Shown: in pieces, positions 29,656-54,785 of the stretch
Position numbering within the stretch: position 1 is the stretch's first letter
Layout: each line of letters begins with the position of its first letter
Assembly: GCF_000196235.1 (NCBI RefSeq)
Contig: NC_008541.1
Coordinates: 3,286,001-3,350,000 of the forward strand
Direction: 5' to 3'
DNA: 64,000 bases
From: Arthrobacter sp. FB24
Lineage (GTDB): Bacteria > Actinomycetota > Actinomycetes > Actinomycetales > Micrococcaceae
Notes under the pieces: model-generated
Told to the model about the DNA's origin: nothing
Database searches by the model: none
The model's input: the letters and a program-made list of their open reading frames with translations, nothing else
Translations under genes and position numbers: made by a program

Positions 29656-29770
29656 GACGCGCAAAAAGTCCCGCGATACGCAAAATCCTTGGCGCACCCG
29701 TTATTTCGGGTGCGCCAAGGATTTTGCGCGTCGGCAGGGATTTTGCGCGTCGGCAGGGATTTTGCGCGTC
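29656..29770. repeat. Short repeat cluster GGATTTTGCGCGTC(GGCAG)
   Basis: A 19-bp unit GGATTTTGCGCGTCGGCAG occurs at 29719-29737 and 29738-29756, with a partial third copy (14 bases) at 29757-29770. Inverted partial copies lie at 29656-29667 (GACGCGCAAAAA) and 29679-29690. The arrangement resembles a REP-type intergenic palindrome with local slippage. Confidence 0.75.
29679..29728. terminator. Long perfect inverted repeat between convergent genes
   Basis: CGCAAAATCCTTGGCGCACCCG (29679-29700) pairs perfectly with 29707-29728 across the loop TTATTT: a 22-bp stem between the sugar-binding protein and the convergent map gene. It can act as a terminator in both directions and overlaps a tandem repeat. 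Confidence 0.75.
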
Positions 29771-29800
29771 GCCGCGGTCGCGTCGCCGTTTGCCAGGGAC

Positions 29801-30628
29801 CTACGGGATCGGGACGGGGACCACGCCCAGCGGCGCAAGGCGCTCCGCACCGCCGTCGGGCGCGGAAAGAACCCAGATGCCCTTTTCATGGACGGCCACT
29901 GAGTGCTCCCACTGGCACGAGCGCTTGCCGTCGGTGGTCACGACGGTCCAGTCGTCCTCGAGCACGGCCGTGTCAATGCTGCCTCGGACCAGCATGGGCT
30001 CAATGGCCAGGCACAGTCCGGGGCGGATCTTGGGCCCGCGGTGGCTGGTCCGGTAGTTCAGCACATCCGGTGCCATGTGCATTTCGGAGCCGATGCCGTG
30101 GCCCACGTAGTCTTCGAGGATGCCCAGCGGCTTGCCCGGGACGGAGGAGACGTAATCGTCCACGGCGCAGCCGATATCCCCGACGAATTTTCCGGTGGCC
30201 AGCGCCGCGATGCCGCGCCACATGGCTTCCTCGGTGACTTCGGACAACCGGACGTCTTCGGGGTCCGGGGTGCCCACAATCACGGTGCGGGCGGAGTCGG
30301 AGTGCCAGCCGTTAACAATCGCGCCGCCGTCGATCGAGATGATGTCGCCGTCGTTCAGTACGCGGGCGCCAGGGATCCCGTGGACCACTTCCTCGTTGAC
30401 CGAGGTGCAGATGGTGGCCGGGAACCCGTGGTAGCCGAGGAAGTTGGACTTGGCGCCCGCCTCGTCCAGGACTGCGCGGAAGACGGCGTCCAGCTGCGCC
30501 GTGGTGGCGCCGGGTACAGCTGCCGCCACCGCAGCGTCCAAGGCGCGGCTCAGGACCAGGCCGGCCTCGTGCATGATGCGCATTTGGGCGTTGGTTTTGT
30601 ATTCGATCCGGGGCTGTCCGAATGCCAT
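29801..30628 (-). CDS. map: Type I methionine aminopeptidase
   Basis: 275 residues, ATG with GAGG 6 nt upstream. Removes the N-terminal Met of nascent proteins. All five metal ligands are visible: Asp100, Asp111, His177 (GHGIG), Glu210 (IEPML) and Glu241 (WEHSVAV). There is no N-terminal zinc-finger or SH3-binding extension. Normally map follows adk directly in secY-adk-map-infA; here the five-gene ole-like operon lies between adk and map, and map starts 37 nt after its last gene, so it may be transcribed with it. Confidence 0.96.
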   Translation of the reverse strand: MAFGQPRIEYKTNAQMRIMHEAGLVLSRALDAAVAAAVPGATTAQLDAVFRAVLDEAGAKSNFLGYHGFPATICTSVNEEVVHGIPGARVLNDGDIISIDGGAIVNGWHSDSARTVIVGTPDPEDVRLSEVTEEAMWRGIAALATGKFVGDIGCAVDDYVSSVPGKPLGILEDYVGHGIGSEMHMAPDVLNYRTSHRGPKIRPGLCLAIEPMLVRGSIDTAVLEDDWTVVTTDGKRSCQWEHSVAVHEKGIWVLSAPDGGAERLAPLGVVPVPIP

Positions 30629-30665: not shown

Positions 30666-31577
30666 TCATCCCAGGTCTCTGATCCATTCTCCCGCACCTG
30701 CGAAGCTGCTCGGGACAGGGACAACACCCAGCTCCTCCCGCAGGCGGCTCGTGGAGTAGGTGCGCTCGAAGCCGAGCTGGCTCACGGCGTACCGTGTGAG
30801 CCGCGGCGGCTTGCGCGTCACGCCTGCCACCGCCTCGAGGGATGCCGCCAGCGTCATCGCCGCGCGCATCGGGATGAAGGCGAGTTCGACGCCGGAACGG
30901 CCGGTGTTGTCCAGTACCTCCCGCAGGACCTGGCCGAGTGCCACGGGCCGGTGGTCGGCGACGTTGACGGGGCCGGCCGCCTCCGAGGTACAGGCGGCGA
31001 GCGCCGCCCGGGCCAGGTTCCCGATGGACGTCAGCTGGTGCCGGACGTCCGGTCCGCCGACGCTCAGCAGCCGGTTATGGTTCACGTTGCTGATGAGGCG
31101 GGGCAGAAGCGTCCGGTCCCCCGGACCGTACACCCCGTGGGGCCGGAGGATCAGCGCATTGCCGTGGCGCGCTGCCGCGGCCTCCGCCATGGCTTTCGAA
31201 CCGGAGTAGGCGTTCAGGTACCGTCCGGCGACCGGATCTTCCGCCCGGTCCACGCAAGGCTGCCACCACGGGTAGATGCTGGAGCTTGAAATGTGGACCA
31301 GCCGCGCCCCCGGGAAGGTCGCGGCCACGGCCTCGGTCCCGAGGACGTTGACGCGGTGGAAGAGCTGGGGCGGACCCCAGTCAGCCACGTGCGCGCCGGC
31401 ATGCACGACGGCGTCGACTTCCGGCGGGTTGGACAGTGGCCCGCCGCTAAGGTCCCAGACGCTGAGTCCGGGGAGAAGGCGGCGGCCGTACCGGATCACT
31501 TCCCAGCCGCGGTCCTCCGCAGCTTGGGCAACAGCTCCGCCGACGAAGCCGCTGGCCCCGGTCACGGCGATCCTCAT
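30666..31577 (-). CDS. NAD(P)-dependent epimerase/dehydratase, OleD-like
   Basis: 303 residues of the extended short-chain dehydrogenase family: dinucleotide site TGASGFVGG at 6-14, SSSS at 97-100 and catalytic Tyr124-x3-Lys128 (YSGSK). In head-to-head hydrocarbon and beta-lactone pathways OleD reduces the OleA beta-keto acid to a beta-hydroxy acid; a nucleotide-sugar epimerase role is the alternative. The operon context (ATGA overlap with the OleC-like ligase and an OleA-like thiolase four genes up) favours OleD. The match to OleD itself needs an alignment. Confidence 0.6.
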   Translation of the reverse strand: MRIAVTGASGFVGGAVAQAAEDRGWEVIRYGRRLLPGLSVWDLSGGPLSNPPEVDAVVHAGAHVADWGPPQLFHRVNVLGTEAVAATFPGARLVHISSSSIYPWWQPCVDRAEDPVAGRYLNAYSGSKAMAEAAAARHGNALILRPHGVYGPGDRTLLPRLISNVNHNRLLSVGGPDVRHQLTSIGNLARAALAACTSEAAGPVNVADHRPVALGQVLREVLDNTGRSGVELAFIPMRAAMTLAASLEAVAGVTRKPPRLTRYAVSQLGFERTYSTSRLREELGVVPVPSSFAGAGEWIRDLG

Positions 31578-33301
31578 GATGTGCCCTCCGGCGGCCTGCC
31601 TCGTGACCGCAGGTCGTCGAAAAGAGCCCGCAGGGCAATCCGGTCCGGTTTGCGGTGCCGGCCGGCAACCGGCAGCCGGGGCATGACTTCTATTCGGTCA
31701 GGGAGCGCTGATTCGTCGATGAGTTTCGGCAGCTGCCGGCGCAGCGTCTGCTGGATCGCGTCCGGGCTCCGTCCGTGTTGCGGTTCGACGGCGAGCCACA
31801 CCGTTTCGTCGCCGATGCCGTCCGGGACGCCGACCATCACGGCCTGGCCGACACCGTCGATGGCGGCAATAACGGGCTCATACAGGCCGGGGTAGATGTT
31901 GGTCTTGCCGCGGATGATCATGTCCTTTTTGCGCCCCAGCATTACCAGCCGGCCGCGGTCCACCCTCACGAGGTCGCCGGTGGCGTGCTCATCCATGGCG
32001 TCCTCGCCAAGGTAGCCCAGGCACATGTTCGGCCCGGAGACCATAAGTTCGTGGTCGGCCGCCACCCGGATTCGCACACCAGGCAGCGGTTCGCCGAGGT
32101 AGTCGCCCGCGCCGGAGCCGTCCGGGGTCCGGAACTCCGCGGTGCGTCCGGAAGCGAAGTCCAGTTTCTCGCGCCCGTCAGCAACTGCGATGGGCAGCAC
32201 TTCCGTCATCCCATAGATGCAGTGGAAGCGCACGCCGGGCAGTAACCCCGCAGCCCGCTCCAGGAACGGTGCCAGCACCGGGGCGGCGCCCAGCATCACC
32301 GTTTTCAGTGCGTCCGGCCACACCAGCTGTCCTGATTGCACGGCGTCGAGGATCGGCGCCAGCTGCGAGGGCACCAGGAACACATGCGTTGCCGCCTGCT
32401 GGCCGGGTGAGGATCCCAGTTCGGCCGCGAACCGCAGCGGATCGATCGCAGCGGACAACCCGTACGCCGGCATTGTCCAGTGGGCGCCGGCGATCAGGGC
32501 CGGCAGCCCCATCATCAGCTGTTCCGAGTGGATGCGGTCGCCGGCCGCGAACGTGCAGCGTGTGCTCAATTGGCCGAATCCTGCCGCCAGGGTTCCGCGG
32601 CTGTGCACCACCCCCTTGGGATTTCCGGTGGTGCCCGACGTGAAGATGATGACCGCTTCCTGCCCCGGCGCGGACGGTACCTCCTGCACCGCCGGCGTCC
32701 CGTCCGGCCAGTCGCCGTCTGCGTACTGAGTGCCGGCGTCGTGAGTGCCGCCGTCGTCCTTACCGCCGCGGTGAGCAGCACTGCGGGCGAGGGTACGGAT
32801 GTTGGTGGACTTCAGCGGGACACCCGGAAGCCACGGACCGGAGTGGAAGTGCCGGACCTCCAAGGCCCCGTAGTCCGGAAGCAGCAGTCCGCGCCGCCTG
32901 GCCAGGGGCCGCAGCGGGCCGCGCGCGCTGAGCGCATAGAGCAGCGACTCGGAAGCCGCCCACCGCGGGGACGCCAGAGCCGTCCTGTTCCGGAACAGTT
33001 CGGGGCCGACCCCGGGATCGATGAACACAATGGCCCCGCCGGCCCGGACGGCAGCCAGCGCGAGCGTGAATGCGGCCGGACCCGGCCGCACCGAAAACAA
33101 CAGCCGTTCGCCCGGACCGAAGCCCTCACGCCGCAGGCCTGCGGCGGTGGATTCGATCCCGGCGGCAAGGTCCCGGTAGCTGATGGTCTTTCCCGGCCTG
33201 CCGCTGCGCCTGCCGGGTGCCGTGATGGCCGGATGGTCCGGGTACTTCGAGGCGGCCTCATACACGGCGGCAATGAGGTCGTCCGGCAGGTCAGTTTGCA
33301 C
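31574..33301 (-). CDS. Adenylate-forming ligase, OleC-like or acyl-AMP ligase
   Basis: 575 residues, GTG start overlapping the P450 stop by 11 nt. ANL-superfamily motifs: TSGTTGNPKG at 221-230, YGMTEVLP, GDLVRVDRGRLVMLGRKKDMI and a C-terminal LPVAGRHRKPDR. The N-terminal VRPGPAAFTLALAAVRAGGAIVFIDPG and YGMTEVLPIAV resemble OleC, the ligase that closes beta-hydroxy acids to beta-lactones; GRKKDMIIRGKTNIYP is instead typical of acyl-CoA synthetases. There is no fused alpha/beta-hydrolase (OleB) domain. The ANL call is firm; the OleC assignment is inference. Confidence 0.65.
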   Translation of the reverse strand: MQTDLPDDLIAAVYEAASKYPDHPAITAPGRRSGRPGKTISYRDLAAGIESTAAGLRREGFGPGERLLFSVRPGPAAFTLALAAVRAGGAIVFIDPGVGPELFRNRTALASPRWAASESLLYALSARGPLRPLARRRGLLLPDYGALEVRHFHSGPWLPGVPLKSTNIRTLARSAAHRGGKDDGGTHDAGTQYADGDWPDGTPAVQEVPSAPGQEAVIIFTSGTTGNPKGVVHSRGTLAAGFGQLSTRCTFAAGDRIHSEQLMMGLPALIAGAHWTMPAYGLSAAIDPLRFAAELGSSPGQQAATHVFLVPSQLAPILDAVQSGQLVWPDALKTVMLGAAPVLAPFLERAAGLLPGVRFHCIYGMTEVLPIAVADGREKLDFASGRTAEFRTPDGSGAGDYLGEPLPGVRIRVAADHELMVSGPNMCLGYLGEDAMDEHATGDLVRVDRGRLVMLGRKKDMIIRGKTNIYPGLYEPVIAAIDGVGQAVMVGVPDGIGDETVWLAVEPQHGRSPDAIQQTLRRQLPKLIDESALPDRIEVMPRLPVAGRHRKPDRIALRALFDDLRSRGRPPEGTS

Positions 33302-34493
33302 GGGCCAGCTCCAACGTTTTGTAGTGCGGGATGAGCACGTTCCGGCTGACGCTTCGGGAGCGGACGCGCCACGGATCGCGGCGGTACTCGTCCAGGAGGA
33401 CGGCCATGGCGGAGTTGATTTCGGCCATGGCTAGCGGCATACCGATGCAGAAGTGGGCTCCCGCCCCGAACCACAGCTGGCGGGCCGCGGGCGGGATGGG
33501 CCTCCGCGGGTCAAAACCGCCCAGGCTTTTGACGGCGTGCACGGTGGATAGCAGGATCCGGTCCCCTGGCCTGATCCGGACGCCGCCCAGCTGCCCGTCC
33601 GTCGTCGCCTCACGGAGCATCATCGGCGACGGCGCGGTGTACCGAAGGCCCTCATTGACGGCGTCCGGGAGGCCGCTGCGGTCAGCTGCCAGCCCGGGCA
33701 GCCTGCCGTCGTCGAACAGCATCGCTGCGAGCCGCGGGACGTAGGAGACCAAGGTTTCAGTCCCGGCGATCACAAAGGCGCTGACGATCCCCACCGCTTC
33801 GTCCTCGCTGAGCCCCAGGACCCGGAGCCGGCCCGGAAAGCTGGACGGGTCGTCGCTGCGGTAGGCGCTGCGCACGGGTCCGGCCAGTATTTCGACGGCG
33901 GCCTTCGCCCTGGTGACCTGCGGCGGCGTCAGCCGGGGCCGGCCCAGCCGCACCAGCGAGGTGATGGAGGTGCCCAGGTTGAAGAGTTCGGTGTCCGGGA
34001 GGCGGCCGGGCGCGTCGTCCCGGACACCCAGCAGCCGGCTGATCACTCCGCCGGACAATTCTTTCACCAGTCCTACGAACTCCACCGAGCCGCCGTTCTC
34101 CAGCCCAGTAGCCAGTCGGCTGCGGAGCCGTTCCCCCGCCGGGGCCACGATGGCTTGAACGGCGCGGGGGGTGAACAGGCCATTGAGGCGGCGCCGCAGC
34201 TCCAAGTGCTCCTCGCCATGCATGTTCAGCAGGACGCGGGGTCCCACCACGGGGGTCCACAGCGCGCCGGAAGCCCTGGCTCCGGACTTCGAATAGCTGG
34301 CATCCATCAGGACCTCCCTGACCAGCGAGGCTTCACTGACCAGTACCCCCAGGCCCGGCAGCCGAACAACGTGCCGGAGCTTCCCCAGCCCGCGGATCAG
34401 CGGGTAGGCCACCGGATGGGCCGCAGTGTGCAGCCGCCGCTCCCACATAGCCGCACCGCCCGTGGCGGTGTCCCGCGCCGCCGCGGCGCTCAC
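33291..34493 (-). CDS. Cytochrome P450
   Basis: 400 residues, soluble class I type. Seen: I-helix AGTET at 243-247, K-helix ExxR as EGLR at 281-284, and the heme loop FGAGAHFCIG at 342-351 with proximal Cys349. The GTG start overlaps the glycosyltransferase stop by 4 nt; an ATG at 34448 is an alternative. No ferredoxin or reductase gene is near. Its place between a condensing enzyme and an acyl ligase suggests it hydroxylates the lipid product or precursor; substrate unknown. Confidence 0.93.
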   Translation of the reverse strand: MSAAAARDTATGGAAMWERRLHTAAHPVAYPLIRGLGKLRHVVRLPGLGVLVSEASLVREVLMDASYSKSGARASGALWTPVVGPRVLLNMHGEEHLELRRRLNGLFTPRAVQAIVAPAGERLRSRLATGLENGGSVEFVGLVKELSGGVISRLLGVRDDAPGRLPDTELFNLGTSITSLVRLGRPRLTPPQVTRAKAAVEILAGPVRSAYRSDDPSSFPGRLRVLGLSEDEAVGIVSAFVIAGTETLVSYVPRLAAMLFDDGRLPGLAADRSGLPDAVNEGLRYTAPSPMMLREATTDGQLGGVRIRPGDRILLSTVHAVKSLGGFDPRRPIPPAARQLWFGAGAHFCIGMPLAMAEINSAMAVLLDEYRRDPWRVRSRSVSRNVLIPHYKTLELARAN

Positions 34494-35296
34494 CGGATGT
34501 CCACGTGGTCCGGGCGGAACCGGTGATCCGCGTACCAGGCCAGCGTGTTGGGCAGGCCCCAGGCCCGGACCCGCCGGGAGGATCCAAACACCACCACGTT
34601 GCGCCGGAGCGCATAGGCACGCGTGAGCTTGCGGACGCGGTTGGAGAGTGCCCGGTCCTCGTGCAAGTCCTCGATGCTGGTGCGGGGAAAACCGCCTGCC
34701 CGAAGGTACAGCTCCGCGGTGATGGCCATGTTGCAGCCGGGCAGCATCTGGTACGGGCCCAGATACCCCTCCCCCTTGTTGCCCGGCCGGATGCGGCCAA
34801 AAAACGAAGCGACCTCCACGGCCAGCAACATGAGCCAGCGGCTGCCCCGGCCCAGCCCTTCGTCCAGCCGCGGGTTGAGCTGCCCGGCAATCATTTCCAG
34901 GCCGTCATCAAACGCTTCCATGATGCGCCGGGTCCAGTCAGCGGCAGGGAGGCAGTCCGCGTCGGTGCGGGCCAACCACCGGGCACCGTTCAGGGCGCCG
35001 AAACGCATGCCGGTATCGGCAGCTGCGCCCGTTCCCTTTTGCGCCTCGTGAACCAGCCGGATGTCCATTGCCGGGTGCAGCCGGGCAAAACCCGCCACGA
35101 TTGCCAAGGTAGCGTCCGTGGACCCGTTGTCCACCACCACGAGCGTGAAATCCTTGTGCACCTGAACGGCCAGCGCCTGCAATGACTGCAGGATCAGCTT
35201 CTCCTCATTCAGGGCCGGCATCGCGACGCACAGCGCCCGCACCGGCGGCTCGCTGCCGGGCACCGGCGGCTCGCTGCCGGGGACAGGCGGCGTCAC
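34490..35296 (-). CDS. Family 2 glycosyltransferase
   Basis: 268 residues from a GTG at 35296 that overlaps the thiolase stop (GTGA). GT-A fold: VAMPALNEEKLILQSLQALA, VVVDNGSTDATLAIVAGFA, the metal-binding LARTDADCLPAADWTRR, and EDLHEDRALSNRVRK as the probable acceptor-side ED motif. One weakly hydrophobic segment (WLMLLAVEVASFFG) may contact the membrane. The N-terminal PPVPGSE duplication comes from a 21-bp tandem repeat. In this operon it probably glycosylates the thiolase/P450 product, but no sugar or acceptor can be named. Confidence 0.85.
   Translation of the reverse strand: MTPPVPGSEPPVPGSEPPVRALCVAMPALNEEKLILQSLQALAVQVHKDFTLVVVDNGSTDATLAIVAGFARLHPAMDIRLVHEAQKGTGAAADTGMRFGALNGARWLARTDADCLPAADWTRRIMEAFDDGLEMIAGQLNPRLDEGLGRGSRWLMLLAVEVASFFGRIRPGNKGEGYLGPYQMLPGCNMAITAELYLRAGGFPRTSIEDLHEDRALSNRVRKLTRAYALRRNVVVFGSSRRVRAWGLPNTLAWYADHRFRPDHVDIR
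35240..35281 (-). repeat. 21-bp tandem repeat at the 5' end of the GT2 gene
   Basis: CACCGGCGGCTCGCTGCCGGG at 35240-35260 is repeated exactly at 35261-35281, with a degraded third copy beyond. In frame, it encodes PPVPGSE twice before the catalytic domain. Confidence 0.85.
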
Positions 35297-36327
35297 AGTC
35301 GCACCACGGCGATGCCCAGGCTGACGCCGCCGGCGAGCCCCACCAGCGCCACCAGGTCCCCGGGGCCGCACCGGCCCAGGTCCTGTGCCACCTTCAGCTG
35401 CAGGGGCAGGCTTACCGAGGCCATGTTGCCGTATTCCTCGACCGTCCTGACGAGCTTGTCCGGAGGCACACCGGCCCCGCGGGCAAAGATGTCCCGGTAG
35501 GGCGCACTGACCTGGTGGACGCAGACGACGGCGAAGTCCGCCCACGACAGGCCCAGCCGTTCCAGGGTCTCGTCCAGAATTCCCCGCCCCAGGTCCAGGA
35601 ACGCGTCCTTGAGTTTTTCGCCGTCCATGTTGAAGTACGTCGCTTCGGGGTCCCGGGGAGCAACGGAACCGCCGGTGGGAAGTGTTCCCACTGCCCAGTG
35701 GCTGCTCTTCGCGGTGAAACCCGTCCCCAGGACCCGGGGCCCGGCGTCGTCGTCGGGATCCGCCGGTTCCAGCAGGACGGCACAGCCGGCGTCGCTCATG
35801 GTGTAGCCCGGAAAGGCAGCGGCGAAAGTCTCCTGGTCCGGAACGGACCAGCGCACGGCCCGGGACGGCGATTCTCCGCTGACCAGGAGCACGCGCCGGT
35901 AGCGGCCGGCGCCGATCAGCGCATCGGCCACTTCCAGGCCGTTAAGAATGCTGTTGCAGGCGTTCTTGATATCCATCACCGGGCAGCCCACGCCCAGTTT
36001 TGCGGCCACCATGTGGCCGGTGGCCGGCTCCACCATGTCCTGGCTCGCCGAAGCAAAGAGTAGGAGGTCGACGTCGGCGGGCTGGAGTCCGCGGTGGGCC
36101 AGCAGCTTCGCGGCTGCCACAGCCGCAAGGTCGGACGCCTGCTCGGTCCCGGCCATCACGGACCGTGTCCGGATCCCTGTCAGTCTGCCGATCAGGCCCT
36201 TTGGGACACGGAAGCCGGGGCTGGCGGCAGCGAGCTGCTCCTCCAACTGCCCGGTACCCATCCGGCCCGGCGGCACATAGACTTCGAGGCCGGCGATCCT
36301 CGCCGCCCCCGGAAGGGTCTGGTTCAT
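35293..36327 (-). CDS. OleA-like thiolase / 3-oxoacyl-ACP synthase III family
   Basis: 344 residues from the ATG at 36327, GGGGAG 8 nt upstream. FabH-type fold with the complete Cys124 (KNACNSILNG), His271 (VHQVSAPY), Asn301 (EYGNMASVSLP) triad. Glu100 in the motif MVEPATG matches the position of the OleA-specific glutamate that acts across the dimer in head-to-head condensation; ordinary FabH has no Glu there. This favours non-decarboxylative Claisen condensation of two acyl-CoAs to a beta-keto acid. First gene of the ole-like operon, 123 bases downstream of the adk terminator. Confidence 0.75.
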   Translation of the reverse strand: MNQTLPGAARIAGLEVYVPPGRMGTGQLEEQLAAASPGFRVPKGLIGRLTGIRTRSVMAGTEQASDLAAVAAAKLLAHRGLQPADVDLLLFASASQDMVEPATGHMVAAKLGVGCPVMDIKNACNSILNGLEVADALIGAGRYRRVLLVSGESPSRAVRWSVPDQETFAAAFPGYTMSDAGCAVLLEPADPDDDAGPRVLGTGFTAKSSHWAVGTLPTGGSVAPRDPEATYFNMDGEKLKDAFLDLGRGILDETLERLGLSWADFAVVCVHQVSAPYRDIFARGAGVPPDKLVRTVEEYGNMASVSLPLQLKVAQDLGRCGPGDLVALVGLAGGVSLGIAVVRL

Positions 36328-36449
36328 GCAGTATCTCCCCACAGACAATGCGTCCGGTCATCTTCCGGCTCCGGTACTGATCGTTTGCCGGCATCCGCCG
36401 GCGGCGCCACCGAACGAGACACCTGGGCAACGGCACCCCGCACAAAAAA

Positions 36450-36485
36450 GGGCGCGTCCCGTACACGATGGTACGGGACGCGCCC
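36450..36485 (-). terminator. Intrinsic terminator of secY-adk
   Basis: GGGCGCGTCCCGTAC (36450-36464) pairs perfectly with 36471-36485, and on the minus strand the stem runs into TTTTTT. It lies directly after adk and separates that transcript from the ole-like operon. Confidence 0.93.
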
Positions 36486-36542
36486 TTGCTGGCACTGGAG
36501 GCAAGCCGGGTTCGGCGGCCTCGGTGCACGGCTAATCCTGGA

Positions 36543-37121
36543 TCAGGCCGCCTGTGCTGCCTTGATGGCCTGCATCACGCGGTCGGTGACCTCGTCGATG
36601 CCGCCTATGCCGTCAACCTGGGTCAGGATGCCGCGCTCGGCGTACTTGGCCACAACAGCCTCGGTCTGCTCGTGGTAGAGATCCAGCCGGTGGCGGATGA
36701 CGGCTTCATTGTCGTCGCTGCGGCCGGTTTCCTTGGCACGGCCCAGGAGGCGGTGCACTAGTTCCTCGTCATCGGCGGTCAGCTGCAGGACCACGTCCAG
36801 CTTCTGCTCACCGTTGGCAAGGATCTCATCGAGATAGTCCACCTGCGCCGTGGTGCGCGGGTAACCGTCGAGGAGGAAGCCGTTCTCGACGTCGTCCTCG
36901 CTCAGGCGGTCGCGCACCATCTTGTTGGTGACGCTGTCCGGCACGAAATCGCCGGCATCCATGTACTTCTTGGCCTCGACGCCCAGCGGCGTCTCACCCT
37001 TGACGTTGGCGCGGAAGATATCGCCGGTGGAGATCGCAACGACGCCGAGGCGCTCGGAGATCCGATCCGCCTGCGTTCCCTTGCCGGACCCGGGAGGTCC
37101 GATAATCAACATTCTCGTCAT
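36543..37121 (-). CDS. adk: Adenylate kinase
   Basis: 192 residues, the short-lid form common in actinobacteria (no zinc finger in the LID). Balances AMP, ADP and ATP. Seen: P-loop GPPGSGKGTQ at 8-17, STGDIFR, NGFLLDGYPRT, RAKETGRSDDNEAVIRHRL. The start overlaps the secY stop by 4 nt (ATGA), and a strong terminator follows the stop. Confidence 0.97.
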   Translation of the reverse strand: MTRMLIIGPPGSGKGTQADRISERLGVVAISTGDIFRANVKGETPLGVEAKKYMDAGDFVPDSVTNKMVRDRLSEDDVENGFLLDGYPRTTAQVDYLDEILANGEQKLDVVLQLTADDEELVHRLLGRAKETGRSDDNEAVIRHRLDLYHEQTEAVVAKYAERGILTQVDGIGGIDEVTDRVMQAIKAAQAA

Positions 37122-48524: not shown

Positions 48525-48935
48525 GTCGCCTGACTCTCTTTCAGTCTGTGCTTCCCCTGTTTGGGGCTGCCCTGTTTACTTACGCGTTGTGCGGCTGCCG
48601 AAGCATTTGAAGTCGTAACTACCACCCGCCGCACAAGCTGAATCCGGAAGAATCCGGGTTCCTCAACCTGCCGGCGTAACCGACCCCCGCGGTCGGGCGT
48701 GTCGCGCTGTGCACGCGTACTCGTCCGCAATTCCATGGGGAGGGGTTATGTTTGGTCTCCTACCTGGACCCTGACACCCGGCATTATCCGGATCGGGACG
48801 CGAAGGAGCGCTTGAACAACTCATCTAGTATGCCGGATTTTGCAGGCAGAAGCGAATCAGGATGTGCCGGGGCCCGTCAGTACCCGGAGATGCGGGGTCA
48901 TTGCCTTCAGCAACCGTCGAATGGATGATAGGGGC
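48525..48935. other. 411-base divergent region between rpsJ and the GH1 gene
   Basis: No credible gene on either strand. It must hold the S10 operon promoter and leader (minus) and the GH1 promoter (plus). A GATAAT-like -10 (minus strand, about 48787) is present but lacks a good -35, so no promoter is called. Confidence 0.55.
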
Positions 48936-50363
48936 ATGACTGTGCAGAACTCTGCGGCGTTGCAGAGCCTGGCCGAGCGGCTGGACCCCGAGTTCGTCCT
49001 GGGTGTGGCCGCCGCCGCGTTCCAGATCGAAGGATCCCTCAAGGCTGACGGGCGTGGCCCGTCCGGCTGGGACGCCTTCGCCGAGAAACCCGGCAGCATT
49101 ATGGACGGCCACTCCCCTGCCATCGCCTGCGACCATTACAACCGTTCCGGCGAAGATGTGGCCCTGATGCGCGAACTGGGCATCAACTCCTACCGGTTCT
49201 CCATTTCCTGGCCCCGCATCCAGCCCGACGGCCGCGGCTCCTTCAACAGTCAGGGCCTGGATTTCTACGACCGGCTGATCGACCAGTTGCTCGACGCCGG
49301 CATCTCACCGATGGCCACGCTGTATCACTGGGACACTCCCCTGCCGCTCGAGCACGGCGGCGGCTGGCTGAACCGATCCACTGCGGAGCGCTTCGCCGAA
49401 TACAGCGCAGCAGCCGGAGAACGGTTCGGGGACCGCGTGGCGCAATGGGTCACACTGAACGAGCCAGTGTCGGTGACACTGAACGGGTATGCACTGGGCG
49501 TCCATGCCCCGGGGCACAATCTCCTCTTCAACGCCTTGCCCTCAATTCACCATCAACTACTAGGGCACGGACTCGCCGTCCAGGCCCTCCGGGCCGCGGG
49601 CGTCACCGGGGCCGTCGGCGTCACCAACCTGCACTCCCCTGTCCGGCCGGCAACCCGCAAGCCCGGCGACAGGATGGTGGCGCGAATCTTCGATATTTTG
49701 ATGAACCGCATCTACGCGGACCCCGTTCTGCTGGGCCGCTACCCGAAACTGCCGCTGGTGGTCCGTCCGTGGTTCCGCTCCATGGGCAAGATCTCCGACG
49801 CCGACCTCCGGACCATCCACCAGCCCCTGGACTTCTACGGGCTCAATTACTACTACCCCGTTAAAGTTGCCATGGGCCGGGGGCCCGTCAGCGTACCGGC
49901 AAACAATTCCGGAGCGCTGGCCCAGTTGCCATTCCACGAAGTGGGCTATCCGGAGTACGAGACAACCGGCTTCGGCTGGCCTGTGGCACCTAAACACATC
50001 GGCATCCTGCTCCGCGAAATGAAGGACCGCTACGGGGATGCTTTGCCGCCGCTGTACATCACCGAGAGCGGAGCGAGCTTCCCGGAACCGGAGCATGTGA
50101 CCGGTCCGATTGCCGACTCCAACAGAATCGAATACCTGGCCAGCCACCTCGGCCATGCGCTGGCGGCCACGTCACCCGGCGGCCTGGCCGAGGACGTGAA
50201 ACTCCTGGGCTACTACGTATGGACGCTGCTGGACAACTTCGAGTGGGCCGCTGGGTACTCGCAGCGTTTCGGCCTGATCCACGTGGACTTTGACACGCTG
50301 GAGCGGACACCCAAGGAGTCCTTCTATTGGCTCCAGGCGCTGAGCCGGGCACGGAAAGCCTGA
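48936..50363 (+). CDS. GH1 family beta-glucosidase
   Basis: 475 residues from the ATG at 48936. Retaining glycosidase of family 1, likely cytoplasmic (no signal peptide), hydrolysing beta-glucosides such as cellobiose. Acid/base Glu176 (TLNEP), nucleophile Glu377 (ITESG, with Ser replacing the usual Asn), substrate-binding CDHYNR and YRFSISWPRI, and C-terminal SQRFGLIHVDFDTLERTPKESFYW are all present. Alternative in-frame ATG at 48921. It is isolated: no sugar transporter is adjacent, though a CUT1 operon lies 20 kb away. Confidence 0.93.
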   Translation: MTVQNSAALQSLAERLDPEFVLGVAAAAFQIEGSLKADGRGPSGWDAFAEKPGSIMDGHSPAIACDHYNRSGEDVALMRELGINSYRFSISWPRIQPDGRGSFNSQGLDFYDRLIDQLLDAGISPMATLYHWDTPLPLEHGGGWLNRSTAERFAEYSAAAGERFGDRVAQWVTLNEPVSVTLNGYALGVHAPGHNLLFNALPSIHHQLLGHGLAVQALRAAGVTGAVGVTNLHSPVRPATRKPGDRMVARIFDILMNRIYADPVLLGRYPKLPLVVRPWFRSMGKISDADLRTIHQPLDFYGLNYYYPVKVAMGRGPVSVPANNSGALAQLPFHEVGYPEYETTGFGWPVAPKHIGILLREMKDRYGDALPPLYITESGASFPEPEHVTGPIADSNRIEYLASHLGHALAATSPGGLAEDVKLLGYYVWTLLDNFEWAAGYSQRFGLIHVDFDTLERTPKESFYWLQALSRARKA

Positions 50364-50535: not shown

Positions 50536-53500
50536 TCAGGAAGAACGATCCTGCCGTCCGTCCGGTGTTGGCTGCGGTTCGGGCAAGGGCGCCGCATCAG
50601 CCGGAGCCACGGGCTTGGCACGCGACAGCTTCCACAGGGCAAAGACAATGAGCCCGACGGCGATCAGCGCCAGCAGGGCGAACGTGTAGGACCGAAGGGC
50701 CCACATCAGGCACAACGAAACCCCGGCCGCACCCCACCAGACGAACATCCGCTCACCGATGAGCAGCCCGGACAACAGGAGCACCGCATGCAGTGCGAGG
50801 ATCCACAGCTGCTGGCCGCCGGATCCGCCAAAGAGTATCCCCACGCCGCTCAGCCCGAGCACAGCTGCGCCGGAGGCCAGCCGGATGCGCCCTGCCCTCC
50901 CGGATCCGGCTGCATAGCGGGCCGCGGCCGTCGCCGCGGCGAGCAGCACGTACCACTGCGCGGCCCAGAACGGCGACTGGAGGTGGCCCTCCGTGACAAG
51001 AAGCGCACGCTGCACGGCAACCGTCACCACGAATGTACCGATTTCGGCGGCCAGCCACCGCCTCCCGACCGGAACTTCCCGAACGATCACGGCCACTGTT
51101 GCCGCCGCCAGCAGGGACGCCGTCAGGGAGGTGGCGTCGCGCACCAATCCGGCCAGGGCGGGGACGGCCAGACCAAGCGCTCCTGCGCACACCAGCGTCC
51201 GCCGTCGCAATCCGTCCTGCGCACTGAACGCGAAGCTGACCCCGTAAAGGACCGCTGCGGCCAGCCCGCAGCCGGCCAGCCATGGCAGATAGGCTCCCCA
51301 CACGCCCGGAGTGCCGCGGAACAGGGTTTCGGTAATTTGTGTCGCCCCGGTCAGGACGAGTGCTGCGGACGGCGGGTACAACAGCGGCAGGCCTTCCACG
51401 TGCGAGGCTGTGAACCCGGTGGCAGCCAGGACCAGAAGTGAGGCACCGGTGATCCAGCCCGCTGCCTGGGTAGCGGTGAGGACGGCAACGACTGCAGGAA
51501 CAGCCGCCCCGGTCAGCCAGAACCAGCGGTCCGCCGCGGGCACATGCTGCCCCTCCCGGCGCCGACGACGTACAAGCCCGAAAGCGTTGAAGGCAAGTGA
51601 CAGAGCAAGCAATGCCAGCGGAACGCCTGTCCGGCTGAGAAGTGGCGCTTCGAGGAAGGTTCCGGCCCCGAAGTGCAGCGCCGGTCCCGCCGCGACAACA
51701 CCGAACAGGGCTGCATACACGGTCAGGTAAAGCGCACCGCGTGCCGCGAACAGCCGATGGGCCGCGACCGCACTGAGCAGCAGCAGAAACATCTCGGCCA
51801 GGACGACGCCGCGCCCGCCCTCGGCAGCGTACACGGCGGACGCACCGCCGCCCTGGATGACATACAGGGCCGGCAGGAGCGCCTGCGCCGCCAAGGTCAC
51901 CCACACTGCGGCATCCTGGAACGGCACCTGCTCCAGTCGGTGCCGCATGAACCAGCGGAGCACGTGCTGGAAAGCCAGCACTCCTGCGAGGGTCAGCGAC
52001 ACTGCCGTGGCGGACGCCGTGACATCGTAACTGAAGACGATTGCCAGCGCGGCAGTGAGTATGCGCGCCGAAGCAAAGTAGGCGCCCTTGGCCTGCCGCG
52101 GTTCCGCCGCAACAACCATGACCGCGCTGTAAACAGCGAAGATTCCCAGCAGGAGCTCGACGTCGGGCAAAATCGCCGCGCTGCAGACCAGCAGGACGGC
52201 CAGCATGGACGGCGCGAAGGCTGCGGCCGCGGTCAGGTCCCGGAATACGTAGCCGGACGCGGCGGCGCTGAGTGCCATGATGGTGATGGTCACGGTTCTC
52301 TGCCAGTCCGCCCCGCCGCCGACGGCCGCGTCGGGCAGGATCACAGCCAGCGCCAGCGTGGCGGTTTGCAGCACCAGGACCAGTGCGACGTCGGCTACCA
52401 CGGCATCCGGGGCGCGGTCGCGGACTGCGGTCACGAGCGGGAACACGAGCTGGACTCCCAGTGCAACGATCAGGATCGTGGGCAGCGAGATGTCCTCTCC
52501 GGCCACGACCAACGGCCCGGACTGCTCCTGAAGGTCTCCGTAGGCCATCGCCAGGAGCAGGGTTGCAGCTCCCCGCGCCATCCACCAGTAAGCCCAACGC
52601 TGGCTGATCGCAGCAGAGCGAAGCGCCGACATACCCAGGTAAAGAACCACCAGCACAAGAAGGCCATTGGCGAGGCCTGGCGAGACCCCGGAATAGGCCG
52701 TCATGACGGCGGTCAGCGCTATTGCCAGCGGCAGCCACTCGACTATCGCAGGCTGCCAGGTTGCGCCGGCAGCGGACCCCGGAAAGAGGAGGGCACCGGC
52801 CGCCAGTGAGGCCAGCAACTGGACCACAAGGGCCACCGCCGAAAGCAGGTTGCCGGGCGTGGAGTCCGTGATGGGCAAGGCCATAAGGCAAAGGGCGCCC
52901 GCGGCGGTAAACCCGGCGAGGGTGGGCACAGGCAGGAGTGCGGCGGCCCCCGCCCGTTCCGCCACGGCCGATGCCAACTGCTGGACCACAAGGCTGAGCG
53001 AGAGTGCGAAGGCAGCCGCAGCAAGGGCATCACTGCTTCCCTCCATCACCGCCGTCACGAAAGCAGGAACGGCGAAAGTTGCGGCTACGCGCGCCGCAAC
53101 GATGAAGTGGCGGCGCAGCCCCGGGCGGGATGCCATCGAGCGAACCGCCCAGAAGAGTGTTGCTGCCGCAAGCAGATTGAAGGCCAGCCAAGGGCCGAGC
53201 TGGAAAGTGGCGACGAGGCCGGTTGCCAGAGCTGCCGGAGGCGCCCATTCAGCGGCTCCCCCGGCTCTAACCGCGGTGTACATGCCAGTTGCGGTGCCGG
53301 CAAGAACCGCCCAGAGCAGCAGGTCCTCCGTGCTACCGGAAACCCGCATGACCATGATGATGACCAGCACCAGCTGCCCGCCAAGCGTAACGAACGAGTC
53401 GGCGGTCCAGTACCGCCTGCCTGCCCGGGCCGGACTCCATCGCTGGAGGGGCGCTGCCGCGGCGGTTATGGCCACCGACTGAAGGGCCAACAGGGATGCC

Positions 53501-54708
53501 CCCGTGAAAAGGGCCCAGACGAAACTGCCGGAGAGATGCCAGGCCCAGGCCGACGCCGCGACCGTCAGCGCCAGGCGCGCGCCGTAGATCTTGACGAGTC
53601 GGTGCCCGGCGGCGGGCATCACGGCCGTCACGGCGAAATAGGCTCCGCAGAGCGCCATGATCAGCGCAAACTCACCGCGCCCCAGACGCAACGGAAGAAA
53701 CAGCGCCGCGAGGCCGACGGCAGGAACAACGAAGGGGTCGAGAAGCAGGAGGGGCCGCAGGAACAGAGGAGTAGCCCAGCCGGGCTTCACCAATGTCACC
53801 GCAGTGGCTGCCACGGCAAAGCCGATCATGGCCGCGAAGTACCAGACGAGCGGAGCCCCGAGCACGGAGACCCCGGACCAGGCGGTGGAGACCATGAAAG
53901 TGAGGGACAGGTACGCGAGGACCCTGCTGTCGAGCCTGACGGCGGCAACCACGTACGCCGCCGTGCCAACGAGCGAGGTTATGAGCCATGCCAGCGGTGC
54001 GTCCTGCACGGCAAAGTTGTACATCGCCAGGCCTGAGACGGGCACCAGCGCCAGCCCTGTCCCTGCGAACGCTACGGCGGCCGGCCGTAGCCTCGGAGCC
54101 GTGGCATGGAGTGTTAGTCCGGCGCCATAGAAGAGCGCCGTGATGAGGCAAACTCCTGCGAAACGGAGCACGGCCGGGAGGCTGGTGCCCACAAAGAGGG
54201 CACCGGCTGCCACAAGCAACAGGCTCGCTACATAAAGGGTGACGTTGATGTTCTGACGTTCGCGCCTCTCCTTGCGTGCCTGCTTTTCCTCCGCGGACTC
54301 CGTGACGAGTGGCTCATCGGTCGCCGGCCCTGCAGCCGCCGACGCGGCGGCAACCTCGGTCGGGGAATATGCGGCGTCGTATGGCTGGCGGGGGGACGGC
54401 TCGACGGGCTGAACGAAGGGCGACGCCGAGAGATCAACGGAGGCATCATCAGGCGCGTCCGCGGCCGAGGGGCGGCGGGCCCAGGTTGTCCCGCGGACGT
54501 CGGCAGCAGCGGCGGGGAGCCCCACACTGGGTGCGCGCTGAACAGAGGCCGCGGTAGCGCAGTCCTTCCACCCCTGGACGTGCCCGGCCATGAAGCCGCT
54601 CCGGTAGGCCGCGGCGTTGGTGTCTTTCAGCTCTCGGATGGAGCGCCGGGAGGAGACCAACAGGACGGAGGCAGTGATGAACAGAAACGTCATGAGGGCA
54701 GACCACAT
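50536..54708 (-). CDS. Giant polytopic membrane protein of unknown function
   Basis: 1390 residues from the ATG at 54708 (AAAGGA 8 nt upstream); a TTG at 54783 would add 25 residues without a ribosome site. One N-terminal TM helix, a Pro/Ala/Asp-rich cytoplasmic linker (about 60-150) with a basic end (KQARKERRERQ), then more than 30 closely spaced hydrophobic segments to a C-terminal tail DAAPLPEPQPTPDGRQ. No transporter or enzyme motif is visible. Recurrent short blocks such as LLLVAAGALFVG and LAFAGTGLALVPVSG recall uncharacterised multi-TM families. Not assigned. Confidence 0.75.
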   Translation of the reverse strand: MWSALMTFLFITASVLLVSSRRSIRELKDTNAAAYRSGFMAGHVQGWKDCATAASVQRAPSVGLPAAAADVRGTTWARRPSAADAPDDASVDLSASPFVQPVEPSPRQPYDAAYSPTEVAAASAAAGPATDEPLVTESAEEKQARKERRERQNINVTLYVASLLLVAAGALFVGTSLPAVLRFAGVCLITALFYGAGLTLHATAPRLRPAAVAFAGTGLALVPVSGLAMYNFAVQDAPLAWLITSLVGTAAYVVAAVRLDSRVLAYLSLTFMVSTAWSGVSVLGAPLVWYFAAMIGFAVAATAVTLVKPGWATPLFLRPLLLLDPFVVPAVGLAALFLPLRLGRGEFALIMALCGAYFAVTAVMPAAGHRLVKIYGARLALTVAASAWAWHLSGSFVWALFTGASLLALQSVAITAAAAPLQRWSPARAGRRYWTADSFVTLGGQLVLVIIMVMRVSGSTEDLLLWAVLAGTATGMYTAVRAGGAAEWAPPAALATGLVATFQLGPWLAFNLLAAATLFWAVRSMASRPGLRRHFIVAARVAATFAVPAFVTAVMEGSSDALAAAAFALSLSLVVQQLASAVAERAGAAALLPVPTLAGFTAAGALCLMALPITDSTPGNLLSAVALVVQLLASLAAGALLFPGSAAGATWQPAIVEWLPLAIALTAVMTAYSGVSPGLANGLLVLVVLYLGMSALRSAAISQRWAYWWMARGAATLLLAMAYGDLQEQSGPLVVAGEDISLPTILIVALGVQLVFPLVTAVRDRAPDAVVADVALVLVLQTATLALAVILPDAAVGGGADWQRTVTITIMALSAAASGYVFRDLTAAAAFAPSMLAVLLVCSAAILPDVELLLGIFAVYSAVMVVAAEPRQAKGAYFASARILTAALAIVFSYDVTASATAVSLTLAGVLAFQHVLRWFMRHRLEQVPFQDAAVWVTLAAQALLPALYVIQGGGASAVYAAEGGRGVVLAEMFLLLLSAVAAHRLFAARGALYLTVYAALFGVVAAGPALHFGAGTFLEAPLLSRTGVPLALLALSLAFNAFGLVRRRRREGQHVPAADRWFWLTGAAVPAVVAVLTATQAAGWITGASLLVLAATGFTASHVEGLPLLYPPSAALVLTGATQITETLFRGTPGVWGAYLPWLAGCGLAAAVLYGVSFAFSAQDGLRRRTLVCAGALGLAVPALAGLVRDATSLTASLLAAATVAVIVREVPVGRRWLAAEIGTFVVTVAVQRALLVTEGHLQSPFWAAQWYVLLAAATAAARYAAGSGRAGRIRLASGAAVLGLSGVGILFGGSGGQQLWILALHAVLLLSGLLIGERMFVWWGAAGVSLCLMWALRSYTFALLALIAVGLIVFALWKLSRAKPVAPADAAPLPEPQPTPDGRQDRSS

Positions 54709-54785
54709 CAAGGTATTCCTTTCGGTGTCATCGCCGCCAAGTGGGCGCAATATTTTATCCAGCGACTGGATTAACTTTAGCAAAA

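Follow-up and report, generated by a model that had tools for sequence, protein, structure and literature searches.

A five-gene operon of Arthrobacter sp. FB24 appears to encode an Ole-derived pathway that lacks the decarboxylase OleB and may yield a glycosylated, hydroxylated head-to-head lipid, perhaps a beta-lactone, a tentative reading to which we give slightly less than an even chance. The DNA analysed, hereafter the window, is a stretch of 64,000 nt (GCF_000196235.1, contig NC_008541.1, positions 3,286,001 to 3,350,000 of the forward strand), and the operon occupies its minus strand at 30666-36327. It encodes an OleA-type thiolase, a family 2 glycosyltransferase (GT2), a cytochrome P450, an OleC-type adenylate-forming ligase and an OleD-type short-chain dehydrogenase/reductase (SDR), all intact and collinear (Table 1), and the Pfam and NCBIfam matches of the five proteins fall in the KASIII/thiolase, GT2, P450, AMP-binding and NAD-epimerase families. 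A preliminary description of this DNA had reported five consecutive minus-strand genes with overlaps of 4-11 nt, and the coordinates of the open reading frames (ORFs) agree: the OleA stop at 35293 overlaps the GT2 start (GTG, 35296) by 4 nt, and the starts of the P450 (GTG, 34493), ligase (GTG, 33301) and SDR (ATG, 31577) genes overlap the preceding genes by 4, 11 and 4 nt, respectively.

Conservation of the five-gene block

Homologous cassettes were collected in one scan of actinomycetes, of whose 116 loci the best 80 are named here. At 66 of the 80 the five genes are complete, share a strand and lie no more than 9.5 kb from OleA, so the block is not a chance association. Among the other 14 loci, seven reach a contig end (L054, L065, L073, L076, L080, L085 and L091), L057 encodes the ligase on the opposite strand, two have no SDR match (L066 and L067), and at four (L052, L069, L094 and L101) GT2 and the ligase are missing. 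The residue counts below refer to 84 cassette loci, namely the window, L018, L115-L119 and those 77 named loci that have a called OleA gene (L080, L085 and L093 have none). In the family, genus and phylum genome sets, which are samples drawn, the cassette was found in 8/197 (E ≤ 1e-30), 33/198 (E ≤ 1e-40) and 3/396 genomes (E ≤ 1e-40), the window's genome included in each count. An annotated set of KASIII, GT2, ligase, P450 and oxidoreductase is also present on pKVP2 of Streptomyces viridifaciens.

OleA-like thiolases with 40-43% identity were also seen in other gene settings on large replicons of Nonomuraea, Streptomyces and Embleya (L019, L020, L021 and L022), that of L021 adjoining an ORF of 2456 aa which by eye is polyketide-synthase-like. 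In G770 (C9:52986-54013) the cassette OleA matches as two adjacent pieces, a possible frameshift.

Placement of the OleA-, OleC- and OleD-type proteins

The OleA identity of the thiolase, which mostly holds, is suggested by a Glu-Pro pair and a Cys found in 84/84 cassette members. When the thiolase is aligned to OleA of X. campestris (3fk5), its Glu-Pro matches that of OleA, while the FabH-type structure 4ryb has Phe-Pro there. Glu100-Pro101 (numbered from the ATG) thus aligns with Glu117-Pro of OleA in X. campestris numbering, a position that we assigned by counting from the active-site Cys, which we take to be Cys143. The pair is present in the alignment in all 84 cassette OleAs (the window's included) and in 7/7 canonical OleAs, and the catalytic triad is nearly invariant in the cassettes (Cys124 84/84, His271 83/84 and Asn301 83/84). 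According to the accessible text of Smith et al. (2020, PMC7064751), Glu117 followed by Pro occurs in all but two of the aligned OleA proteins. The pyrone synthase PpyS also uses a catalytic Glu at the equivalent position (PMC4578411, in part), so the Glu alone cannot tell OleA from PpyS. The OleA tree held no PpyS sequence and a single FabH reference on a very long branch. The best NCBIfam matches of the thiolase were NF006720 (169.5 bits), NF006829 (151.0 bits) and fabH (121.5 bits), all under their cut-offs, and its sole other match in its own genome was FabH-like, at 25% identity.

For the ligase, a tree of 44 proteins grouped 22 of the 75 cassette ligases with eight canonical OleC domains, apart from 14 AMP-forming ligases of the same genome (branch support 100/98). 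Nine of the 23 AMP-ligase matches of the genome were outside this tree: the cassette ligase itself (L146), L135, L148, L149 (wrong-strand ORF), the non-ribosomal peptide synthetases (NRPSs) L137-L139, and the partial or weak matches L147 and L150. Arg548 and Lys551 are common to the cassette ligases (72/75, 3 gapped) and OleC (8/8). The NCBIfam OleC equivalog cut-off (900 bits) was missed by the cassette ligase (105.6 bits), and also by the two canonical OleBC proteins of Micrococcaceae that were scanned (296.5 and 298.4 bits).

The SDR tree gave a similar picture, with 19 cassette SDRs and seven canonical OleDs separated from seven epimerase-like SDRs of the same genome (branch support 99/96); within the OleD-side clade, two Herbiconiux SDRs were closer to canonical OleD (80/76). 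The catalytic residues of the cassette SDRs are conserved (Tyr124 and Lys128 76/76, Ser97 75/76 with one gapped). The NCBIfam OleD equivalog cut-off (580 bits) was missed by the cassette SDR (104.7 bits) and reached by 0/197 family genomes, and identity between cassette and canonical Ole proteins was 25-32% at the four canonical loci printed. The preliminary description had called the operon Ole-like and its thiolase OleA-type; the two clades support the OleC and OleD placements, and the Glu-Pro signature bears out most of that of the thiolase. Housekeeping identities as FabH, FadD and sugar epimerase were ruled out by the residues and trees together; the distinction cannot be made from database scores alone.

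Absence of OleB and of canonical ole genes from the genome

A search of the genome with an OleBC fusion (E ≤ 1e-3) gave 18 matches, all within residues 307-861, the OleC part, and none in the OleB part (1-306). The absence of OleB that had been noted for the cluster thus extends to the whole genome. With the canonical OleD model, the top score in the genome was the cassette SDR (103 bits) and the next was 64 bits, while the listed canonical OleDs of relatives score about 262-314 bits; no canonical OleD was found in the genome by this profile search. The canonical olefin pathway was ruled out, since neither OleB nor canonical OleD is present.

The canonical layout is oleA, an oleBC fusion and oleD in L120, L122, L123 and L126, and smc and mutM, recognised by eye, lie near it in three of these four loci (not in L122). 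In the genome of strain FB24 the space between smc and mutM, the ole site of a relative, is occupied by three other called genes, one of them an ORF of 1589 aa that by eye appears secreted (L168, 1601-8895).

P450 and glycosyltransferase

The P450 residues are conserved across the aligned cassettes: the haem Cys (C349 80/80), the ExxR motif (E281 79/80 and R284 80/80) and the acid-alcohol pair (T245 79/80 and E246 80/80). The presence of the haem Cys in 80/80 rules out an inactive glycosyltransferase activator, the family of TIGR04515 (39.3 bits against a cut-off of 343). The predicted structure of GT2 is a confident GT-A fold (predicted local distance difference test score 88.8), and its fold gave no match beyond the general GT-A fold from which an acceptor class could be read. 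In G040 and G064, GT2 and P450 are fused as a single protein of 661 aa, which fits successive action of the two enzymes.

The N-terminus of GT2, before the conserved part, bears a PVPGSEP repeat that stems from a 21-bp tandem repeat (93% matches) at 35239-35291. Of the 77 loci with a called OleA, 24 have a further P450 close to the cassette; it is 32-37% identical to that of the window and always lies on the strand opposite the cassette P450, divergent from it (for example, L037 15265-16443).

Variant cassettes

GT2 is missing at 7/84 cassette loci, an absence that refers to the locus, as the GT2-less genomes were not searched for GT2 elsewhere. Five of the seven genomes have a pair of ATP-grasp and GNAT-like proteins. 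In g26 (three loci), OleA, P450 and SDR are preceded by an F390-synthetase-related enzyme and by an ATP-grasp/GNAT-like gene, the latter a single fusion in L115 and L116 and in pieces in L117. Pfam support at L115 is 36.8 bits for ATP-grasp_3 and 23.2 bits for Acetyltransf_6, the latter just over the 22-bit cut-off. The F390-synthetase-related enzyme of g26 matches TIGR02304 with 353.7 bits (cut-off 251.9), and that of Herbiconiux was assigned by 47% identity. Within 21 kb at either Herbiconiux locus no ATP-grasp/GNAT pair was matched, only the F390-like enzyme, and at no GT2-bearing locus was the pair matched; both statements cover the locus stretches, the rest of the genomes being unsearched. 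L101 (Nonomuraea sediminis) and L094 (Fodinicola) have a cassette-type ligase elsewhere, beside ATP-grasp and GNAT-like homologues, and a minimal OleA-P450-OleD pathway without ligase was therefore dropped for these two genomes. In a tree of OleA+P450+SDR (26 rows), the GT2-less loci L101, L115 and L052 occupy two separate places.

Insertion site and relation to long-chain olefins

The operon lies between adk and map inside a ribosomal (housekeeping) operon. Each of the 16 Arthrobacter/Paenarthrobacter loci in the set of 80 has the order secY-adk-cassette-map, and in 8/8 cassette-free genomes of the genus adk is followed by map, with a gap of 77-192 bp from the last aligned adk residue. In the OleA+P450+SDR tree, the Arthrobacter cassettes group with those of Pseudonocardiaceae (83/98) and apart from those of other Micrococcales, other Micrococcaceae included, which suggests with moderate support that the Arthrobacter cassette was transferred from a Pseudonocardiaceae-like donor.

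The cassette and canonical ole seldom co-occur in the genus. Among the 198 genus genomes, 33 have the cassette, 112 have canonical OleD, five have both and 58 have neither (E ≤ 1e-40 for both; P-value = 1.4e-7, Fisher test, shared ancestry ignored). At the family level, canonical OleD is present in 160/197 genomes and absent from 7/8 cassette genomes; of these seven, two (G129 and G144) do not appear among the 20 listed negatives and were counted as negative because the positives do not include them. Micrococcales olefins are reported to average 27-29 carbons, nearly every completely sequenced Micrococcaceae species has an ole cluster, and the Arthrobacter strains of the same study gave traces of olefin only (PMC7158056, from the accessible text).

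Table 1. Features of the operon and its boundaries (positions in the window)
Feature	Coordinates	Strand	Remarks
OleA-type thiolase	35293..36327	-	344 aa from ATG 36327; alternative start TTG 36348
GT2 glycosyltransferase	34490..35296	-	268 aa, GT-A fold, DxD Asp112/Asp114 conserved
Cytochrome P450	33291..34493	-	400 aa, haem Cys349, ExxR, Gly-Thr-Glu-Thr acid-alcohol motif
OleC-type adenylate-forming ligase	31574..33301	-	575 aa, without OleB fusion
OleD-type SDR	30666..31577	-	303 aa, Ser97, Tyr124, Lys128
adk (adenylate kinase)	36543..37121	-	upstream boundary; family match
map (methionine aminopeptidase, Peptidase_M24)	29801..30628	-	downstream boundary; family match
Intrinsic-terminator-like hairpin	36448..36487	-	17 pairs then T run, between adk and operon

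The start of map is 37 nt past the SDR stop. The 101-nt stretch bearing the hairpin between adk and the operon has a z value of -5.45; the count of terminator-like sites in the region is by itself unremarkable (3 vs. 2.5 expected), and hairpins were also read by eye in the adk-map gaps of empty sites. A promoter scan of the region found none. GC content is 0.68-0.70 in the 30-36 kb blocks and lower on either side (0.62-0.64 at 22-30 kb, 0.59-0.63 at 36-44 kb). Between the stop of map and a convergent gene that resembles a sugar-transporter binding protein lies a perfect 19-bp tandem repeat of 2.8 copies (29719-29771). Farther away, between rplC and tuf, two ORFs judged by eye encode a protein of 1415 aa with multiple membrane spans (50536-54783, minus strand) and a GH1-like beta-glucosidase (48840-50363, plus strand), and AT skew is +0.22 to +0.32 at 50-54 kb.

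Discussion

The chemistry proposed here follows from established Ole enzymology and the gene set. OleA would couple a pair of activated acyl chains head to head, giving a 2-alkyl-3-keto acid, which OleD would reduce to the 2-alkyl-3-hydroxy acid; the P450 would hydroxylate a chain carbon, and GT2 would attach a sugar to the hydroxyl so made. The OleC-type ligase would adenylate the carboxylate and, acting most likely as a beta-lactone synthetase, close it onto the beta-hydroxyl. The lactone would persist because there is no OleB to convert it into an olefin. What we infer are the substrates, the position that is hydroxylated, the identity of the sugar, the order in which P450, GT2 and ligase act and the lactone itself.

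Several observations weigh against this pathway. Among solved structures the thiolase matches the FabH-type 4ryb best (113.1 bits), slightly ahead of OleA of X. campestris (106.8 bits). The window ligase scores higher with two fatty-acyl-CoA-ligase models (155.3 and 130.8 bits) than with the OleC model; on the two scanned canonical OleBC proteins the OleC model outscores the second of them. In its own genome the cassette ligase ranks no higher than fourth among the matches of the OleBC query, and its identity to canonical ligases is 24.9-27.4% at the four loci printed. The trees had few outside references, neither LstC nor NltC among them. At the three g26 and two Herbiconiux loci an F390-synthetase-like enzyme replaces the OleC-type ligase, and a whole-genome search found no cassette-type ligase in those genomes. 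The chemistry of the cassette branch is also unproven in that the recoverable OleA of Actinoplanes, of which little protein remained and whose sequence relation to the window OleA is uncompared, condensed none of the C8-C16 acyl-CoAs tested (PMC7064751, accessible text).

The scores of the acyl-CoA-ligase models and the exchange of the ligase for an F390-synthetase-related enzyme in g26 and Herbiconiux would also fit a pathway with the same head-to-head skeleton in which the ligase makes no beta-lactone and instead either supplies OleA with an activated fatty acid or activates the 2-alkyl-3-hydroxy acid so that it can be transferred as an ester or amide. That the Actinoplanes OleA ignored plain acyl-CoAs could be explained by such a dedicated activating enzyme. 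The product would be a glycosylated hydroxy-acid lipid without the four-membered ring. We consider this possible but somewhat doubtful, as the ligase groups with OleC and not with the 14 other ligases of its genome and shares Arg548 and Lys551 with OleC. That the product is a structural membrane lipid which replaces the C27-C29 olefins of Micrococcaceae, and not a secreted natural product, seems unlikely, even though so few genus genomes have both systems, other genes fill the canonical ole site in this genome and the operon is located within a housekeeping operon. The Fisher test ignores shared ancestry, five genomes have both systems and 58/198 have neither, and the cassette is rare phylum-wide; moreover, a membrane role is compatible with the lactone pathway and hence no true chemical alternative to it.

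The thiolase might also be a PpyS-like pyrone synthase, with the SDR, ligase, P450 and GT2 decorating a pyrone. PpyS, which likewise joins two acyl groups, has its catalytic Glu at this position (PMC4578411, accessible text), and since PpyS sequences are absent from the trees the phylogeny does not bear on the matter. The same operon holds OleD and OleC homologues, neither of which a pyrone route requires, and this reading is very improbable. An accidental adjacency of ordinary FabH, FadD and epimerase genes, which the NCBIfam matches under curated cut-offs and the FabH-type structure match would allow, is close to negligible given the Glu-Pro signature, the OleC and OleD clades and the conserved five-gene block.

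Compared with canonical oleABCD of Micrococcaceae, with which it shares OleA, OleC and OleD homologues, the operon lacks OleB, adds a P450 and GT2, and sits between adk and map instead of beside smc. Lipstatin-type pathways use a second, partner thiolase and an NRPS/formyltransferase; the operon has a single thiolase, with P450 and GT2 in place of the latter, and no partner thiolase was found in the genome beyond the FabH-like match. It resembles the lipstatin and nocardiolactone pathways in that their oleACD clusters are without oleB (PMC7064751, accessible text). PpyS is similar as a KASIII-type enzyme with the head-to-head Glu and differs in making pyrones, with no OleC or OleD partners mentioned in the accessible text of PMC4578411. 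The preliminary description knew of no pathway with this gene set, a claim refuted by Smith et al. (2020, PMC7064751, accessible text), who describe an Actinoplanes atraurantiacus cluster of OleA, a glycosyltransferase, OleC, P450 and OleD that lacks OleB, and propose as its product a beta-lactone that is hydroxylated and glycosylated. The two clusters share the five functions, the lack of oleB and the proposed chemistry, and differ in order: OleA-GT-OleC-P450-OleD in Actinoplanes, as in the Streptomyces viridifaciens annotation, vs. OleA-GT2-P450-OleC-OleD in the window. No Actinoplanes name is among the 120 matches listed here. The gene set has thus been known since 2020, and no paper characterising a product of it was found in the accessible open-licence literature; the survey, the GT2-P450 fusion, the module swap, the insertion site and the pattern of exclusion with ole were not met there.

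More speculatively, and rather unlikely as a whole, a large actinomycete family of oxidised head-to-head lipids could have gone unrecognised, built around OleA, OleD and P450 and with both the head-group modules and the adenylating enzyme exchangeable: GT2 would add a sugar in most members, and the ATP-grasp/GNAT-like pair might cap others with an amino acid or amide. The sugar form of Arthrobacter and Paenarthrobacter would, on this view, have entered the gap between adk and map from a Pseudonocardiaceae-like donor and would tend to replace the C27-C29 olefins. The operon is both compact and widespread, Arthrobacter is among its hosts, and the prediction of its product has been standing since 2020. 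The module swap provides matched natural variants for enzyme work, and the near mutual exclusion of the operon and oleABCD offers a direct way to ask what purpose the long-chain olefins of Micrococcaceae serve.

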